A DNA stretch of 64,000 nucleotides from Deltaproteobacteria bacterium (GTDB taxonomy: Bacteria; Desulfobacterota; Desulfomonilia; UBA1062): NCBI GenBank assembly GCA_029547185.1, contig JAKPPU010000056.1:1-64000 (forward strand), in the 5' to 3' direction. Shown one piece after another: positions 32,235 through 42,761 of the stretch (its first letter is position 1; the number at the start of each line of letters is the position of its first letter). The notes under the pieces are model-generated. The model had not been told where the DNA came from. It was given only the letters and a program-made list of their open reading frames with translations, and did no database searches. The translations under genes and the position numbers were made by a program.

Positions 32235-32945
32235 TCATTTCTCGTTTGCCTGTCTCTCCTCGGTTCCGACCCTCTCTGCCGATGCGATATAGATCATGGC
32301 GAGGACCGTGAATATGAAAGCCTGGATCATACCGATCAGAAGTCCCAGCGCCTGCATGATAACCGGGAAGAAGAACGGGATGACGGCAAGAAGGATCGCT
32401 GCGATCTTGGTCTCGGACATGATGTTCCCGAAGAGCCTGACTGCCAGCGCGAGCGTCCTGGTGAATTCACCCATGATATTGAACGGAAGCATGAGAGGCG
32501 TAGGTTTCGTGTACTGCTTCAGGTATGAGAGGAATCCCTCGTTCGCTATTCCATAAACGGGAACGGCGAAAAACACGCAGATGGCAAGACCTGCCGTCGT
32601 GGAGAGAGAGCTCGTAGGAGGAACGTATCCGGGAAGCTCCATAAAGAAGTTCGAGAAGGCGATGAAGAGGAAGAGCGTTCCGATAAAGGCAATATACTTC
32701 CCGGGCTGCTCGTTGGCGATATCCCGGATCTGGCCGGATATGGTCTCCACAACGGCCTCGAGGAAGTTCTGCCACTGTCCGAAGCTCCGGCCGGATGAAA
32801 TACGGCGGGTGGCGAGCCATGACAGGATCGTCAGGGCAGCCATGGTTATCCAGGTGTAGAGAATCGTCACGTTGAGCTTTATCCAGCCCGCCTGCCAGAG
32901 GATGACGGCGTCGGGAGTGATCTCTCCGATCTTCAGGATTTCCAT
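32235..32945 (-). CDS. atpB: N-type ATPase a subunit
   Basis: 236 residues from the ATG at 32945, inside the end of atpR; the open frame continues upstream only as a shadow of atpR. Membrane channel half that passes ions to the c ring. Five or six helices; the essential Arg lies in RTLALAVRLFGNIMSETKIAAILL. C-terminal helix pair MQALGLLIGMIQAFIFTVLAMIYI is typical, including the conserved Q. N-type features are the short N-terminus and direct neighbourhood to atpR. Confidence 0.92.
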   Translation of the reverse strand: MEILKIGEITPDAVILWQAGWIKLNVTILYTWITMAALTILSWLATRRISSGRSFGQWQNFLEAVVETISGQIRDIANEQPGKYIAFIGTLFLFIAFSNFFMELPGYVPPTSSLSTTAGLAICVFFAVPVYGIANEGFLSYLKQYTKPTPLMLPFNIMGEFTRTLALAVRLFGNIMSETKIAAILLAVIPFFFPVIMQALGLLIGMIQAFIFTVLAMIYIASAERVGTEERQANEK

Positions 32946-33247
32946 TGTTCCGCCTCGATCTCTTTTCCCGATCTGCTTCCCGAAGGCCTCCACAGCAATA
33001 CCATGAGCTGCCTTGCCAGGATGAACCCGACGAGGCAGGCAGCGAACTTCTGCCACTCGCCGCTGCTGACCGCAAAGAAGACCCCGATCACGAAAGCTGC
33101 CCGCAAAATGAAGCTGCCCATGAGGAAAAGACCGGGCCTTCGCGCACATCGGACCTTGAGGATCGTAACCATGAGCCCGCTGAAATAAAGGAGCCCTGCG
33201 CCGAACCCACAGAGGAAAACGAGGGCTAGCTGAAGTGAGTGGCTCAT
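32933..33247 (-). CDS. atpR: N-ATPase-specific membrane subunit AtpR
   Basis: 104 residues with three hydrophobic helices (about 5-30, 40-62, 68-88). AtpR is found only in N-type ATPase operons, where it is thought to help assemble or stabilise the c ring; conserved membrane Arg residues (FILRAAFVIG; LARQLMVLLW) are visible and are proposed in the literature to interact with c-subunit glutamates. Overlaps atpB by 13 bases. Confidence 0.88.
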   Translation of the reverse strand: MSHSLQLALVFLCGFGAGLLYFSGLMVTILKVRCARRPGLFLMGSFILRAAFVIGVFFAVSSGEWQKFAACLVGFILARQLMVLLWRPSGSRSGKEIEAEQWKS

Positions 33248-33254
33248 GATCCGA

Positions 33255-33576
33255 TCATCTCCTTTCCCTTCTGTCTCCGGTACGACCGAGCGAGTTCTGC
33301 ACCCAGTACCACGCGTTCAGACAGCCGAGGATTATCCCGGCAAAGAGGAGGATCAAAGTCCATGAATGCGTGCTCGGCCATGTTCTGTCTATCCATATCC
33401 CGAGGGCAATTCCTGCCAGGGTCGGAATGGTGACCGCCCAGCCTACCATTCCGATCATGCCCAGGCCGAAGATGATGCTGCTCCGCTTGTTGCGTTCGGC
33501 ATTCTCCTTCCTGAGGCCTTTTGCCCGCACCTTTCTGATGAACCGCTCAAACCGCTTTTGCCTGTTCTCCCTGTAA

Positions 33577-33584
<8 letters not shown>
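33255..33584 (-). CDS. atpQ: N-ATPase subunit AtpQ (AtpI-like)
   Basis: 109 residues from the ATG at 33584; upstream part of the frame is a shadow of atpC. A basic N-terminal helix (RKVRAKGLRKENAERNKR) precedes two membrane helices, the second ending with WTLILLFAGIILGCLNAWYWV, the G..LG...A.YW pattern of AtpI/AtpQ proteins. AtpI-type proteins assist c-ring assembly. Overlaps atpC by eight bases and is seven bases upstream of atpR. Confidence 0.85.
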
Positions 33585-35443
<1,859 letters not shown>

Positions 35444-35541: not shown

Positions 35542-36309
35542 TTACTGACCCGCCAGCCTGCAGGTCTTGTCCCCGTTCCCTCCGGATCTCAAGTCGTCGG
35601 ATCTTAAGGTATTGATATCTTGATTCTCGAGGAACTGCTTCATCTTCTGGAGAGATCTGACCTGGAGCTGCCGTACCCGTTCCTGGCTCAATCCCAGCTG
35701 AGAGCCGATTTCCATGAGTGTAACCGGGGGATCCGAGTAGAACCGCTTGAGAATGATGAACAGCTCCCTGCGCGTCAGCATGGTGAATCCCTGCTGAAAG
35801 AGGAACGAGACCTGCCGCGAGATCTCTCTTCCGGAGTAGAGCGATTCAAGGTCGAAGTCGTCCGTGAGGTAATCGACCCATCGATCCGTCTCGCTGGGAT
35901 CTCCTGCAATGGTTTCATCCAGGGAAAGGAGATCCTTTGTGTGCCGCAGGGTTCCTGTACGAATCTTGCTGCTCTTGCGGATGAAATCCTTGATGGATGC
36001 CTCGATCCACCATACGGCATAGTAAATGAAGTGCACGCCGCGGTCAGGATCGAACCGTGTGAGGGCCTTCATGAGCCCGAGGTTTCCCTCCTGAACGATC
36101 TCAAGATAGTTGTGGCCGCTGTTAAAATATTTCTGACTGACCTTCACGACGAACCTCAAGTTTGCATGGATGATCTTCTGTCCTGCATTCACATCACCCT
36201 GCTGGTACTGTTTTGCCAGCTTGTATTCCTCTTCGGGCAGCAGGAGAGGGTATCGTCTTATTTTCCGGAGATAGAGCTGAAGCTCTGAGTAATCATGTCT
36301 GTTTGCCAT
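35542..36309 (-). CDS. RpoH-like (sigma-32 type) alternative RNA polymerase sigma factor
   Basis: 255 residues. Region 2: HANLRFVVKVSQKYFNSGHNYLEIVQEGNLGLMKALTRFDP, then FIYYAVWWIEASIKDFI for the core/-10 part; region 4: TLMEIGSQLGLSQERVRQLQVRSLQKMKQFL. Region 1.1 is missing and the early YLRKIRRYPLLLPEEEYKLAKQY matches heat-shock type sigma factors (RpoH family). The order of conserved parts is complete, so it is probably active. The start overlaps the end of the Lon-like gene by 17 bases (AAAGG nine bases upstream), implying translational coupling. The N-ATPase operon starts about 170 bases downstream. Confidence 0.85.
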   Translation of the reverse strand: MANRHDYSELQLYLRKIRRYPLLLPEEEYKLAKQYQQGDVNAGQKIIHANLRFVVKVSQKYFNSGHNYLEIVQEGNLGLMKALTRFDPDRGVHFIYYAVWWIEASIKDFIRKSSKIRTGTLRHTKDLLSLDETIAGDPSETDRWVDYLTDDFDLESLYSGREISRQVSFLFQQGFTMLTRRELFIILKRFYSDPPVTLMEIGSQLGLSQERVRQLQVRSLQKMKQFLENQDINTLRSDDLRSGGNGDKTCRLAGQ

Positions 36310-37978
36310 ACGTCATTACCTTTCCCGAATACAGTTTCAGGGTTTCGATGGGATTCTTTGGCCCATGCGGTTTCAGATCCGGGCCAGCGAGTTTTACCTT
36401 TTGCCTTTGGGGAAGAGCAGTTTGTGCACGGTATGCGAATTCAGGGTACATTTCCCAGGCAGCCTTCGATATATGCTCGGCAGTGACGGTAAAGGCCTCG
36501 GAATAATCCCGCGCCCTGCCTATCACTGCCAGGACCTTCGAGAAGTGGCTTTCGGTGCTGTCCTGATACATTCCCGGATCGCTGAAGAGCGAAATGATCG
36601 CCTTCCTGGCGGATATATCGAGAGGTTTTCCCGAAGGGATCTCTCCCGCTTTGCGGGGATGCGTCTCTTGCGATTTTTCCTCTCTGCCCGAGGCGCAAGC
36701 GGTGATGGGTTTCCCTGCGAGATGGAGAAAATCCGGATCCGCCAGTGAGAGGATTGAATAGCCGGAGGAGCTGCCCGTGACGACAACGGTCGTATGGAGG
36801 GGTATGGCCTCGGGCGCAATGTTGCCCGAGGCGAACATGCAGCAGCGGGGGTCCGTGCTCATGCCCCGGAGCTCTCTGCACAGCACGGCAGCCTTCAGCA
36901 GCTCCCAGAGGTGAAAATGTCGCAGGACCCATGATGCCTCGACGACGAGAAAGCCCCCGTTTGCCTCGTGGAGCGCCCCGGCCCTGACAAAGGTGAAGCC
37001 GGCCTGGCAAGAGGGAAGAGCAGACTCGCTGGAGACACTGCCGAACAGGCTCTCCTGGTCGGCATCATGGGCAAAGACGAGGGGCGGTTCCTGGATGCTG
37101 CCCCTCGTTACGAGGACATTGACGGAGTATGGCGAGTACAACAGCTCCTGTGAGCCATCCCCGGAGCCCTCACGGGAGCAGGAGACCGAATCCGTGCTCA
37201 CCGGCAGGGTAAAGATATGGAGGTTCTCGAGAATATCTTCACCCACTTCCTCCAGGTAAACGAGTATCCTCGAGTTCTTCCGGTATTTATTTTTCAGGGC
37301 CAGCAGCAGGGGAGCAATGGTTTCCCTGGCCTTGTTCGCAGTTAAGGAGTCGAGCTCTTCGGAGCACCTTTTCTTGAGCAGCCTGATTTTGTCCCGAGCC
37401 AGCTGTTCGTCCGCTCTTGCCGTCCGGCAGAACGGGATGCAGGGAGTATCTCCCGCAGCCGTGTAAGGGGTTGCTTTTCGGGGGTCTCTTTCCGTCTGAC
37501 GAGACCCGATTCCCTGCTCCTCATCCTCTTCACCGGAGCCGGCCTTTGCGAGGGTCTGGTAGATAGGCTGAGCCACATCCTGCTCCTGTCTATCGAAGCT
37601 CGTCCTCAGACGGTCTGCCTCAAGCCGGTAGTCTTCTGAGGCAAAGATGCTCCGGAGCCTGCACCGGGCCTGCTCGATAAAAAACTCCATATCCGAGCGG
37701 AATATGGGCCCGAACCCTGGTGGAAGGCTTAAGATGCGCGGGCGTGATTCCGCATGGAAATTATGGACGCAGCACCAATCTGAGGCCGCAGGGTAAGCAT
37801 ACCCTTCGGATGTCAGGGCCTCCATCATCTCGCTTCGGCTCAGCTCGCTGCCTTTCTCGGACAGCAGGAACAGAAAGGAAGGACGGGTTGCACCTCTCAT
37901 CCTCCTGCCCCTCCCGAGCACTTCCATAGGGGGAAAAGCCAATTTTTCCAGGAGATCATGATCATGTACGCTTCCCAC
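36293..37978 (-). CDS. Lon-like (AAA_32) pseudo-protease lacking Walker A and protease domain
   Basis: 561 residues; related Lon-like proteases are near 800. The family blocks are recognisable: DWCCVHNFHAESRPRILSLPPGFG with FRSDMEFFIEQARCRLRSIFASEDY (residues 67-117), NVLVTRGSIQEPPLVFAHDADQESLFG, and the Walker-B-like HEANGGFLVVEASWVLRHFH. But where relatives have GxPGTGRT/K near residue 40, this protein has FLFLLSEKGSELSRSEMM, with no P-loop, and it ends soon after the sensor region (AAWEMYPEFAYRAQ) without the Ser-Lys protease domain. It therefore looks like a non-proteolytic, probably ATP-independent derivative. It directly precedes and overlaps an RpoH-like sigma gene. Confidence 0.75.
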   Translation of the reverse strand: MGSVHDHDLLEKLAFPPMEVLGRGRRMRGATRPSFLFLLSEKGSELSRSEMMEALTSEGYAYPAASDWCCVHNFHAESRPRILSLPPGFGPIFRSDMEFFIEQARCRLRSIFASEDYRLEADRLRTSFDRQEQDVAQPIYQTLAKAGSGEEDEEQGIGSRQTERDPRKATPYTAAGDTPCIPFCRTARADEQLARDKIRLLKKRCSEELDSLTANKARETIAPLLLALKNKYRKNSRILVYLEEVGEDILENLHIFTLPVSTDSVSCSREGSGDGSQELLYSPYSVNVLVTRGSIQEPPLVFAHDADQESLFGSVSSESALPSCQAGFTFVRAGALHEANGGFLVVEASWVLRHFHLWELLKAAVLCRELRGMSTDPRCCMFASGNIAPEAIPLHTTVVVTGSSSGYSILSLADPDFLHLAGKPITACASGREEKSQETHPRKAGEIPSGKPLDISARKAIISLFSDPGMYQDSTESHFSKVLAVIGRARDYSEAFTVTAEHISKAAWEMYPEFAYRAQTALPQRQKVKLAGPDLKPHGPKNPIETLKLYSGKVMTYGKQT

Positions 37979-38034
37979 TCATCACCCGGCTTCGCTCTCC
38001 TCGAGAATACGACCTGTCCATCATAGCGACCGAT

Positions 38035-38301
38035 TCATTCGAACCATTCAGGGAAGTTTTTCCTGACATCCCTGGGACGTTTGAATTTGATGCGGCCGGA
38101 TACGAACATGCCGGCGATCATTCGGGCGATAAGCCTGTCCTGGAATGGATTGACCCGATCCTGAAAAGCCCCGGACATGCAAAGCTCAGGTGTAATGCTG
38201 ATACCATCACCGATCGCCTCCATGAGGTCATAGAGGGTGGTAGTAATTTCAGCCTTTTTGCTCCTTGAACCGAGAGCACTATGACCACTGTGTATGCTCA
38301 T
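38035..38301 (-). CDS. Small protein of unknown function upstream of Lon-like/sigma pair
   Basis: 88 residues, ATG preceded by AGGAGGATTTACT, a strong ribosome binding site. Sequence contains KKAEITTTLYDLMEAIGDGI in the first half and RLIARMIAGMFVSGRIKFKRPRDVRKNFPEWFE at the end; no membrane segment or cysteine cluster (one Cys). I do not recognise it firmly, though short proteins with ITTTLYDLMEAI and a closing SGRIKF occur in deltaproteobacteria. It lies 56 bases upstream of the Lon-like gene and probably shares its transcript. Confidence 0.7.
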   Translation of the reverse strand: MSIHSGHSALGSRSKKAEITTTLYDLMEAIGDGISITPELCMSGAFQDRVNPFQDRLIARMIAGMFVSGRIKFKRPRDVRKNFPEWFE

Positions 38302-38810
38302 AGTAAATCCTCCTGTCGTTTCTCTGATGAGGCAGGCAATATATCGGACCTCATCCGACAGCCCCCCATCGCGTAGTCATACGTCATACCCTGTTTATTC
38401 AAATGGTATGCCGAAATATCCGAATCTGAAAAATCACATGATATCAGCACAATATGCGCAGACGGCCGTCCCATGCGGGTCCGTGGGGGAATGGTTGCCG
38501 TCCTATTATGTGGGATGAATCCTTTTTTACAAGAATCTCGCTGGTGATATTTCGGATTATATCCATTTCTCGACAAGTTATGTGAGAGCCCGCAGGGAGC
38601 GAAAATCTCATACGCCTGGAATCATTGCATTTTACGTATCAATCGATCTTTGATCTTTTCACGTTCCCGGGGAGATCCTGTGCCGATTCTTTCCACGGAT
38701 GCTGCAAGTTAATGATTATTCGTATATTTCCGATCGCTCATCCCTGAGCGTACGGCATGGTCTCTCTTGCCGGCCAAGGGGAGTTTCCTGTGCAGCAGGG
38801 CATGGAGGAA
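38302..38810. other. Intergenic region upstream of the small-protein/Lon/sigma set
   Basis: About 500 bases with no supported gene. On the minus strand it should hold the promoter of the 88-residue gene; a TTGAAT at about 38400 is the best -35-like element, without a convincing -10. A short hairpin TCGGA-TGAGG-TCCGA occurs near 38345-38360. A 92-codon minus-strand frame across 38298-38576 has no ribosome binding site or similarity and is discounted. Confidence 0.35.
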
Positions 38811-39065
38811 CTACATGTGCCGTGGAACTTCATGCTTATGGAGGAGGGCGTACAATCGAGATCGGGAAAGGCCGGAGATCCTGCATGCATTTGAAACATT
38901 TCCCGAGGTACACCGCATCAGCTCCAGGAGGTAGAAGCGCTCCACCTCGGCCAGATACCTGGTGCGGACCGAGCGCAGACCGGGAAGGGCAGGCGACGGG
39001 GTCCGTTTCACCTTTGATATGATCTGATCGAAAGAGGGCCTGTAAATGTTCATGGCATGGATCAT
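38811..39065 (-). CDS. Stand-alone Fis-type helix-turn-helix protein
   Basis: 84 residues. The C-terminal half (AEVERFYLLELMRCTSGNVSNACRISGLSRSRLYALLHKHEV) is the Fis-type DNA-binding domain normally found at the end of NtrC-family activators; it closely parallels the end of the full regulator encoded 300 bases upstream (SEIEEQYLKELLRQTKSDIKGACKVSGLSRSRLYALLKKYEI). The N-terminal 30 residues look unlike any receiver or AAA domain. Start may be ATG 39065 or 39053; neither has a strong ribosome binding site. It could be a true small DNA-binding protein or the surviving tail of a duplicated regulator. Confidence 0.6.
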   Translation of the reverse strand: MIHAMNIYRPSFDQIISKVKRTPSPALPGLRSVRTRYLAEVERFYLLELMRCTSGNVSNACRISGLSRSRLYALLHKHEVPRHM

Positions 39066-39087
39066 ATAACAAGCTGCATGCCAACAT

Positions 39088-39362: not shown

Positions 39363-40766
39363 TCAGGAGATCTCGTACTTTTTGAGCAGGGCGTAGAGGC
39401 GCGAGCGTGAGAGCCCCGAGACCTTGCATGCGCCTTTGATATCCGACTTCGTCTGGCGGAGAAGTTCCTTGAGGTACTGCTCTTCGATCTCGCTGACAGC
39501 CTCCTCCCTCACGTCCTTGAGGCTGGGGAGGCTCGCATCGCCGAAGATCCTGTGATTCTCGTGCTGCGACTGCTTCTTTGCCGCAGCGTTCCTCTTGACC
39601 TGGACATGGATATGGTAGGGCAGATGCTTGGGGACGAGGATGGGGCTGTCATGGGCAACGGCCATCGCACTCTCCAGCGCATGGATGAGCTCCCTGACAT
39701 TGCCGGGCCAGGAATACTGGAGGAGAATGTCGCGGAACGCTGCACTGACACGCTTCGGCTTCATGCCGTACTTTTTGCTGTGCCGCTTGAGGTAATGGTT
39801 CGTCAGGTCCGGGATATCATCGATACGGTCTCTCAAGGGGGGCAGGTCGATGGTGATGGACCTGAGCCGGAACAGGAGGTCTTTTCGAAACCTCTTGTTC
39901 TGTACGAGGTCTTCCAGGTCGCGGTTGGTCGCGGAGATGACCCTGAAGTCGCTTTCCACCTCGCTCGATTTTCCGATGGGCCGGAACTTGCCTTCCTGGA
40001 GGACCCGGAGGAATTTCTTCTGGATCGAGAGAGGGAGCTCTCCCACTTCATCGAGGAACAGGGTTCCCTTGTGCGCCTGCGTCACCAGGCCGTGCTGGGC
40101 CCTGTCCGCACCGGTATACGATCCCTTTTCGTGCCCGAAGAGGATGCTCTCGACGAGGTTTGGCGGGAGCGCTGCGCAGTCGACCACGACGAAATCATTG
40201 CCGGCTCGAAGCGAGTGGTTGTGAATGGCCCGCGCGAAGAGCTCTTTTCCGGTGCCGGTCTCTCCGGAGATGAGGACGCTCGCATCGTTCGAGAGCGTCT
40301 TGCTCAGGAGGGTCAGGCATTTTTTCATTCCGGGGCTATGGCCGATGATGCCCTCTTTCTCGAAATCGAGGGCAGTCTGCGGCAGCGTGCTGCTCTCGTG
40401 GTAGAGCACGGCATCCTTGAGAAGCTGGGCCAGATCGGTTTTCGAAAAGGGTTTCTCGATGTAGTCCCATGCGCCCCGGGACAAGGCCAGGTCCACGGAA
40501 TCAGGGTCTCCGTATGCGGTGATGACGATCACCTCGGGAGAGCCCGTGTTCCTGCAGATCTGGGGGATGATATCGATGCCGTTTCCATCCGGCATGCGGA
40601 CATCAAGAAAGACGATATCGTAAGGATCGGCCCGTACCGCATCGAGCCCCTCTTCGAGGGTGAACGCCTGGGCGCTGTTATACCCCAAGGTTCTCGATAC
40701 ATTTGCAATCGAGCTGCAAACGAGCTTGTCATCGTCGATCACGAGGATCCTTTTACGTTCTTCCAT
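39363..40766 (-). CDS. NtrC-family sigma-54-dependent response regulator
   Basis: 467 residues: receiver domain 1-120 with phospho-acceptor D55 (IVFLDVRMPDGNG) and acidic pair DDD at 11-13; AAA+ domain about 140-385 with P-loop SGETGTGKELFARAIH and the sigma-54 contact loop GSYTGA (consensus GAFTGA; A to S and F to Y); a GTLFLDEVGELP Walker B; C-terminal Fis-type HTH ending CKVSGLSRSRLYALLKKYEIS. Activates sigma-54 promoters when phosphorylated by the hybrid kinase just upstream, whose stop lies nine bases before this ATG. Target genes are unknown. Confidence 0.92.
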   Translation of the reverse strand: MEERKRILVIDDDKLVCSSIANVSRTLGYNSAQAFTLEEGLDAVRADPYDIVFLDVRMPDGNGIDIIPQICRNTGSPEVIVITAYGDPDSVDLALSRGAWDYIEKPFSKTDLAQLLKDAVLYHESSTLPQTALDFEKEGIIGHSPGMKKCLTLLSKTLSNDASVLISGETGTGKELFARAIHNHSLRAGNDFVVVDCAALPPNLVESILFGHEKGSYTGADRAQHGLVTQAHKGTLFLDEVGELPLSIQKKFLRVLQEGKFRPIGKSSEVESDFRVISATNRDLEDLVQNKRFRKDLLFRLRSITIDLPPLRDRIDDIPDLTNHYLKRHSKKYGMKPKRVSAAFRDILLQYSWPGNVRELIHALESAMAVAHDSPILVPKHLPYHIHVQVKRNAAAKKQSQHENHRIFGDASLPSLKDVREEAVSEIEEQYLKELLRQTKSDIKGACKVSGLSRSRLYALLKKYEIS

Positions 40767-40775
40767 GGTTAAATC

Positions 40776-42761
40776 TCATAAGACGGTTTTTGTGAAATGT
40801 AAATCATTTCTCCCCAGCGCCAGATCGATTGCATCCGCCAGGATACGGGAGGTAAAGGGCTTTGACAGGTAGACGGAAAAGTCATCGTGCCGCTTTTTCA
40901 CTTCCCTGATCGCTTCCTCCGACCCCGAGCAGAGAATGACCGGCAGATCCTTGCGCATCCCGAGCATTTCTGAGGCCATCTCGTCGCCGTTCATGGAGGG
41001 CATGAGCTGGTCGGTGATGAGCAGGTCGAACGCCTCCGGGGTTTTCCGGAAGAGATCGAGTGCCCTCAGAGAATCATGCGTCGATGCCACCCGATACCCC
41101 AGGCGTATGAGCATCTGATGGATGCTCTTCAGTTCAAGGGTATTGTCGTCGACCAGGAGGATCCGCCCCTTGCGCACCGAACCCCCATGGAGCGTCTCCG
41201 CTGCCTGAGCATCCGGACCTCCGGCAAGCTTCGGGAAGAAGACCTCGAAGGTCGAGCCTTTTCCGGGCTTGCTGAGGACGATTATGGACCCTCCTGCATT
41301 CTTTACGACCGTATGCACGACTCCCAGGCCCAGGCCCGTGCCCTTGTTCGATTTCTTCGTCGTAAAGAGGGGATCGAAGATCTGATCGATGATCTCCGGG
41401 CTCATTCCGCATCCGGTATCCTTTACCGTGAGCTTGACGTATTCTCCGGGATTCAGAACGGACACGAAGGCAGGAGAAGCGTCGTTTACCCGAACCTCTG
41501 CCAGGGTTATGGTCAGGGTGCCTTCAGGGCTGTTCTCCATGGCCTGGACGGCGTTCAGGCCGAGATTGGTGAGAAACTGATAGAACTGGGGAGGATCGAT
41601 TCTCACGAGGGCCTCGGTAGGGGCTATTTTCTGCCTCAGGATGATGTGAGGAGGGAGGGACCGGCTGACGGCCCTGACGGCGTCCCGGGTAACGGCCTCT
41701 ATGGACACAGGCTTGAAGGCATGCTCCTTCCTCGAACCGAAGAGCTTTATCTGGTTCGTGACCTCCTTGCCGATGCGTGCAGCCTCCATGATCTGGCTTA
41801 AGTACTCCCGCTCAGGGGCGTCTGCAGGAAGCGAGTCGCAGACGAGCTCGGCATTGATGATGATAGGCTGCAGGATGTTGATAAAATCATGAGCTATCCC
41901 GCCCGCAAGCATCCCCAATGCCTCGGTTCTCCGTTTTCTTTCGAGGGCTCTCTGCAAGACCTTTTCTTCCGTGACATCGTGCTCGATGACCGTATAGTTG
42001 GTGATGGTTCCGGCCTCGTCCTCAACAGGAGAGACGATGACCTCCAATTCCCGGATGCCGCCGTCGGCGCCGGTTCTCTTGACCTGTCCCCTCCAAGGCT
42101 TTCCGCCAAGCCGCTTGAGAGAGAATCCATCCGAGACGTACTGCTCATACGGCTCTCCCGGAAGCTCGCGTCGGGGAACCTCAAGCGCATGTTCTGCGGC
42201 GGGGTTGAGGTATTGGACCATGCCTTCGGAGTCGAGAATGAAAACGCTTTCGGTGGTGTGCTCGAAGGCAGAGACGAGGAGCCTATTTACCTGCTCCGTG
42301 CGCTTGTTCTCCCCGCCTTCCCGCCCATGGTGCTCATTTTGCCGCGCGTGCCCTGCCTTGTCCCTGAACCGAAGGAGAACATTTTTGAGCATTATGGGAA
42401 GGACGGCAGGGTAGAGGTCGGAATCCCTCTCAAGATAGGCATACATTCCTTCTTCGAGGGCCTCTGCGACCATTTGAGAAGATGATGCATCACTCAGGGC
42501 GATAAAGGGCGGACAGCCGTTTATTCCTTTGACCTCGCGATAGAGGCCGAGGCCTGTATTGTCGGGCAGTGTAAGCTCTGTGACCACGAGATCAAACCGG
42601 GCGCCTCGGCCACAGAGAAGGGAGACGGCCTCTCCGGCGAGACTGCAGTCGATGATCTCACACTCCCTGAAGCCCTTCTTCACAGCTCGGTGGAAAGCCT
42701 GGCGATCATGCCGGCTTCCTTCAACCAGAAGGATGCGATATGTATCGTTTCGAGCTGTCAT
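40776..42761 (-). CDS. Hybrid sensor histidine kinase with two receiver domains
   Basis: 661 residues, no membrane segment, so cytoplasmic. Order: N-terminal receiver-like domain (1-125), coiled coil, PAS (about 165-280; AFEHTTESVFILDSEG), histidine phosphotransfer H-box GGIAHDFINILQPI, kinase ATP-binding domain (NLGLNAVQAME; DTGCGMSPEIIDQIFDPLFTTK; GTGLGLGVVHTVV) and a C-terminal receiver with LLITDQLMPSMNG. The first receiver is degenerate: the phospho-site aspartate is E62 (VVTELTLPD) and the acidic pair is E14-G15, so it probably does not accept phosphate. Paired with the NtrC regulator downstream. Confidence 0.92.
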   Translation of the reverse strand: MTARNDTYRILLVEGSRHDRQAFHRAVKKGFRECEIIDCSLAGEAVSLLCGRGARFDLVVTELTLPDNTGLGLYREVKGINGCPPFIALSDASSSQMVAEALEEGMYAYLERDSDLYPAVLPIMLKNVLLRFRDKAGHARQNEHHGREGGENKRTEQVNRLLVSAFEHTTESVFILDSEGMVQYLNPAAEHALEVPRRELPGEPYEQYVSDGFSLKRLGGKPWRGQVKRTGADGGIRELEVIVSPVEDEAGTITNYTVIEHDVTEEKVLQRALERKRRTEALGMLAGGIAHDFINILQPIIINAELVCDSLPADAPEREYLSQIMEAARIGKEVTNQIKLFGSRKEHAFKPVSIEAVTRDAVRAVSRSLPPHIILRQKIAPTEALVRIDPPQFYQFLTNLGLNAVQAMENSPEGTLTITLAEVRVNDASPAFVSVLNPGEYVKLTVKDTGCGMSPEIIDQIFDPLFTTKKSNKGTGLGLGVVHTVVKNAGGSIIVLSKPGKGSTFEVFFPKLAGGPDAQAAETLHGGSVRKGRILLVDDNTLELKSIHQMLIRLGYRVASTHDSLRALDLFRKTPEAFDLLITDQLMPSMNGDEMASEMLGMRKDLPVILCSGSEEAIREVKKRHDDFSVYLSKPFTSRILADAIDLALGRNDLHFTKTVL

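Follow-up and report, generated by a model that had tools for sequence, protein, structure and literature searches.

LonC proteases such as MtaLonC and TTC1975 combine a LonC helical domain with an AAA core (PF20437/PF13654), and MtaLonC is ATPase-free and takes unfolded substrates only (PMC3391209). In Caulobacter, the stress sigma factor sigmaT is degraded by Lon (PMC10662116). Group 3 sigma factors usually carry the domains sigma2, sigma3, and sigma4, and extracytoplasmic function (ECF) factors are without sigma1.1 and sigma3 (PMC4598750). In the Rrp2-RpoN-RpoS pathway of Borrelia burgdorferi, an NtrC-type regulator and sigma54 drive a second sigma factor gene (PMC2940757, PMC3037356).

A locus with likenesses to several of these systems is found on the minus strand of contig JAKPPU010000056.1 from a deltaproteobacterium, of which we analysed a stretch of 64,000 nucleotides (the window). 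As in Borrelia, we propose that an NtrC-type regulator and sigma54 act on a second sigma factor gene, although in our locus the second sigma factor is an RpoH derivative, its regulator is encoded next to it, and the -12 part of the sigma54-like element is non-canonical. The conserved finding is a two-component, probably sigma54-driven module that makes an RpoH relative without region 3 together with an 88-amino-acid protein. A dead LonC relative (pseudo-LonC, or pLon) and a superoxide reductase travel with the response as optional extras.

A preliminary description of the window had placed three open reading frames here, and all three are present: the gene of the 88-amino-acid protein (38035..38301), that of pLon (36293..37978, 561 amino acids), and that of the sigma factor (35542..36309, 255 amino acids). 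The sigma gene does start inside the end of the pLon gene, by 17 nucleotides, but this overlap occurs only in G000 and G003 among the genomes compared, and the others have gaps of 5 to 14 nucleotides. Upstream lie genes for a stand-alone Fis-type helix-turn-helix (HTH_8) protein of ~80 amino acids (38811..39065), an NtrC-type response regulator of 467 amino acids (39363..40766), and a hybrid histidine kinase of 661 amino acids with PAS, HATPase_c, and Response_reg domains (40776..42761). The regulator has the make-up of a sigma54 enhancer-binding protein, with a receiver (PF00072), a sigma54 AAA+ domain (PF00158), and an HTH_8 domain (PF02954), and a GAFTGA-type loop reads GSYTGA. The Fis-type protein is a paralogue of its DNA-binding domain, with 53% identity to residues 412-466. 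Downstream of the sigma gene, positions 32235-35369 hold ATP synthase genes in atpD-atpC order, resembling an N-ATPase operon.

Eight genomes (G000 to G007) sample the genus, a Candidatus Phosphitivorax clade of anaerobic sludge bacteria. The organism belongs to a deltaproteobacterial clade, and orthologues of its sigma locus are found in Syntrophaceae UBA6087, UBA1062, and Phox-21; the last is known as Candidatus Phosphitivorax anaerolimi. The gene order in the genus is hybrid kinase, NtrC-type regulator, Fis-type protein, 88-amino-acid protein, superoxide reductase (in some genomes), pLon (in some genomes), and sigma factor. Genes for the 88-amino-acid protein, sigma factor, kinase, and regulator also stand together in G013 and G021, which belong to other genera of the same family; these loci showed no adjacent pLon. 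From this synteny, the PAS histidine kinase, the NtrC-type regulator, the 88-amino-acid protein, and the sigma factor are read as the conserved unit. The 88-amino-acid protein, whose fold is not recognised and which has no match in Pfam, the PDB, or most of the phylum, is encoded in seven of the eight genus members (the gene is degraded in G007), and its gene adjoins that of the sigma factor in G013 and G021 too; by gene order it accompanies the sigma factor more constantly than pLon does. The superoxide reductase (Desulfoferrodox) gene is intact in four genomes (L051:6555-6944, L054:7775-8161, L055:5592-5978, and L056:5678-6064) and comes after the 88-amino-acid gene in G001; in G002 it is an internally deleted remnant, and no copy was found in G000. 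In G013 the regulator gene is followed by a second, truncated sigma gene (L058:4459-5031), which has a promoter-like element of its own (TGGCATAACAATTGAATA).

A sigma54-like -24/-12 element of the form GG-N10-GA, CGGCATACCATTTGAATA, precedes the 88-amino-acid gene at 38396..38413. The block CGGCAYACSAWTTGAATA, ~90 nucleotides before that gene, is common to all seven alignable genus genomes and is also present in G007. Outside the genus, G021 has TGGCATGCCAATTGAATA and G013 the weaker form TGGCACAACAATTGTATT, so that the element is kept in ten genomes, with more variation in these two. Further upstream, an imperfect dyad, TCCY-N7-AGGA (38498..38520), is conserved in an alignment of seven genomes and is a candidate enhancer site for the regulator. 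A second sigma54-like element, TGGCATGCAGCTTGTT, lies before the Fis-type gene (39068..39083), and the corresponding TTGGCAT...TTGTTA site is conserved in 7/7 genomes compared.

The length and spacing of the conserved element fit a sigma54 promoter, but its -12 dinucleotide is GA or GT, and the canonical GG-N10-GC core was not found there. The element pattern occurs once in the window, against 0.14 occurrences expected; the canonical sigma54 pattern is not enriched in the window. Across three genomes, the pattern with the variant -12 gives 13 occurrences in total versus 1 for a reversed-pattern control, and in relatives it is met again close to flhA and a porin gene. TTGWW in place of TTGCW at -12 seems to be common in the clade (window elements; L131, L133-L136). 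Because the genome has one sigma54 gene and a sigma54 activator is encoded next door, sigma54 control of the operon is likely, although unproven, since the -12 dinucleotide is not the canonical GC.

The sigma factor contains regions 1.2, 2, and 4 (Pfam), and RpoH (sigma32) is its best NCBIfam match. The preliminary description had called it RpoH-like, which stands as far as these regions and the sequence are concerned, but the protein scores 176.6 bits on the RpoH model, far under the cut-off of 323.1, and region 3 is absent. Judged against E. coli RpoH, the genome's own RpoH (contig 192), and RpoH of a sister family (f2), it lacks the ~45-50 residues that in those proteins separate region 2.4 from the region 3.2 linker; these correspond to region 3.0/3.1 and include the RpoH-box segment. 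The absence of domain 3 is shared with ECF factors; unlike these, the protein keeps region 1.2 and RpoH-like sequence and has no recognised anti-sigma partner. The genome encodes three such region-3-less factors, the one in the window and two on contigs 52 and 73 (L069:6133-6894 and L070:5304-6065), beside an RpoH of canonical length. Among 345 genomes of the phylum, region-3-less matches at E 1e-38 or better, all of which cover most of the sequence in one piece, come only from the family of the source organism. In open-access literature, searched also for the phrase "lacks region 3", we found no described RpoH-type factor of this make-up, which is weak evidence that there is none. Within the genus, the window's sigma factor is 95-96% identical to those of six other genomes and 87% identical to that of G007, with dN/dS of ~0.02 (~0.01 in the close trio G004-G006).

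pLon was described from the sequence as a dead relative of Lon, without a P-loop at the expected place and without a Ser/Lys protease domain. This description holds, and the protein is more exactly a relative of LonC. Pfam recognises AAA_32 (PF13654, E 2.5e-25, residues 297-419) and LonC_helical (PF20437, E 5e-12, residues 67-98); the protein has a LonC-type AAA core and LID, and solved LonC chains match by sequence. Where the genome's own LonC has the Walker A stretch GVPGTGKKT, pLon aligns with the unrelated sequence LSEKGSELSRSE (residues 36-56), and a G-x4-GK[S/T] motif was found nowhere in pLon or its five orthologues. Pfam detects no protease domain, and all six pLons stop before it in an alignment with intact LonC. 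The same form in six of eight genus genomes rules out a sequencing error, and a search of window positions 30-45 kb with the protease portion of the genome's intact LonC gave no significant match, so a protease domain displaced by frameshift is ruled out as well.

Structure prediction points to the same family. A first AlphaFold2 model from six sequences was too poor to use (pLDDT 46); after intact LonC sequences were added, the model reached pLDDT 76.6 and pTM 0.75, although it thereby leans to the LonC fold and is not independent of homology. It matches LonC structures, namely 8k8v (Z 25.1, rmsd 3.1 Å over 325 residues) and the N-terminal domain of MtaLonC, 4fwv (Z 24.7), versus Z of ~12 for non-Lon AAA+ chains. 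pLon thus resembles LonC proteases in helical domain, AAA core, and predicted fold, and in being, by prediction, ATPase-free like MtaLonC, but it differs in having neither a Walker-A-like motif nor a Ser-Lys protease domain, in evolving fast, and in its place in a sigma operon. The genome has a separate, intact LonC of 814 amino acids on another contig, with AAA_32, LID, and Lon_C domains; a search of the genome's contigs with pLon itself gave no match. A recent truncation of the genome's own LonC is unsupported, as the pLons form one long-branch clade, the place of which is uncertain.

Within the genus, six of the eight genomes have pLon next to the sigma gene (G000 and G002-G006). The linkage does not extend further. 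In G001, pLon is an internally deleted remnant of which the two ends and a small internal fragment are left; its frame is changed, and ~1.3 kb is missing relative to G004; in G007 it is absent. Among the matches listed from the 345 genomes, pLon is restricted to the genus, and those from elsewhere are full-length LonC or shorter frames, which run into a contig end in the cases examined. Since the core in G013 and G021 has no pLon beside it, pLon is a genus-level addition. In the close trio G004-G006, the pLon core has a dN/dS of ~0.37 (pairwise Nei-Gojobori, bootstrap 0.25-0.59), excluding the N-terminal part of the frame, which in these genomes shares DNA with the superoxide reductase gene in a different reading frame. 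The same pairs give 0.06-0.08 for intact LonC, ~0.05 for the regulator, and ~0.01 for the sigma factor. Constraint within pLon is strongest in the helical and LID parts (~0.14-0.25 in the closest pairs, with one pair reaching 0.33), and its linkers evolve near neutrality. By these rates, pLon is under purifying selection, maintained where present but loosely.

We give about an even chance to a stress cascade that runs from a two-component system and sigma54 to an alternative sigma factor, with optional cargo that includes the dead LonC as a non-catalytic ring or holder. The PAS histidine kinase and NtrC-type regulator would turn on the putative sigma54-type promoter before the 88-amino-acid gene. 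The operon would yield the 88-amino-acid protein and always the sigma factor, with superoxide reductase in some species and the dead LonC in most, and the region-3-less sigma factor would then steer RNA polymerase to its own regulon. pLon, presumably capable of neither ATP hydrolysis nor cutting, would most likely be a ring or holder, a role suggested by homology with LonC and by its retained helical and AAA scaffold, which may admit unfolded chains. It would be optional stress cargo like superoxide reductase, and not an obligatory regulator of the sigma factor. The cargo reading is favoured because pLon is genus-restricted, lost in G001 and G007, and fast-changing compared with the sigma factor. 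The non-canonical -12 dinucleotide counts against the cascade, and two further points count against the cargo reading: the close spacing of pLon and sigma genes, with LonC beside RpoH in f2, would also fit a direct LonC-sigma relation, and the weak constraint on pLon would also fit slow decay.

The preliminary description had suggested that pLon could bind the sigma factor and so protect or sequester it, in the manner of a former sigma-degrading protease turned holder. In six genomes pLon immediately precedes the sigma gene, which agrees with this, as does the fate of Caulobacter sigmaT as a Lon substrate. The strongest case left for a LonC-sigma relation is the linkage in f2, a family of the same class: in 11 genomes, intact LonC and full-length RpoH are encoded within ~3 kb on one contig, and at the six loci confirmed on DNA (L059-L062, L099, and L100) LonC is directly upstream of RpoH. 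No sigma gene was seen beside LonC at the f2 locus of G040, or in the flanks read at 36 LonC loci outside f2. Joining pLon to f2 LonC is not rejected in the tree test (p-AU 0.084); placing it with the source family's own LonC instead has a support of only 52/60. A dedicated partner role is nevertheless unsupported, since pLon is absent from other genera where the core persists, and two genomes of the eight in the genus have retained the sigma factor but lost pLon. In G001 the sigma factor is 98-99% identical to those of close relatives that keep pLon, with no relaxed constraint seen, and pLon changes fast beside a near-static sigma factor. A partnership is possible but not favoured, and we consider it unlikely. 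That an RpoH-destroying protease, still intact and RpoH-linked in f2, became a dead LonC ring that binds and controls the region-3-less sigma factor is quite unlikely. Among the open-access papers listed, none deals with a pairing of LonC or pseudo-Lon with a sigma factor, which is weak evidence of absence.

Slow decay of an old LonC copy with little remaining function would account for the lost P-loop and protease domain, a dN/dS ~5x that of intact LonC, the near-neutral linkers, the remnant in G001 and absence in G007, and the parallel decay of superoxide reductase in the same operon. It accounts less well for open frames of ~560-616 codons that persist in six genomes although their products have diverged to 34-45% identity with that of the window, for a dN/dS clearly below 1, lowest in the helical and LID parts, and for the retention of invariant LonC residues; we hold decay, too, to be unlikely. 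pLon could instead be a dominant-negative or adaptor subunit that enters mixed rings with the cell's intact LonC and tunes its activity. Every pLon genome in the genus has an intact LonC (~806-845 amino acids) elsewhere, and pLon retains the AAA and helical interfaces. However, shared interfaces are doubtful because pLon is only ~22-24% identical to the genus's intact LonC, and G001 and G007 keep LonC without pLon, so that mixed rings appear very unlikely. Optional stress cargo of the cascade remains our preferred reading of pLon.

That LonC and RpoH recur as neighbours within one class points to membership of LonC proteases in heat-shock-type regulons; the papers searched do not yet ascribe such a role to them. 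The losses of the dead LonC beside a constant sigma factor amount to a natural experiment on whether the pseudoenzyme matters. The sigma factor itself shows that domain 3, which ECF factors have also lost, can disappear from an RpoH-type factor that nonetheless stays ~95% conserved within a genus.
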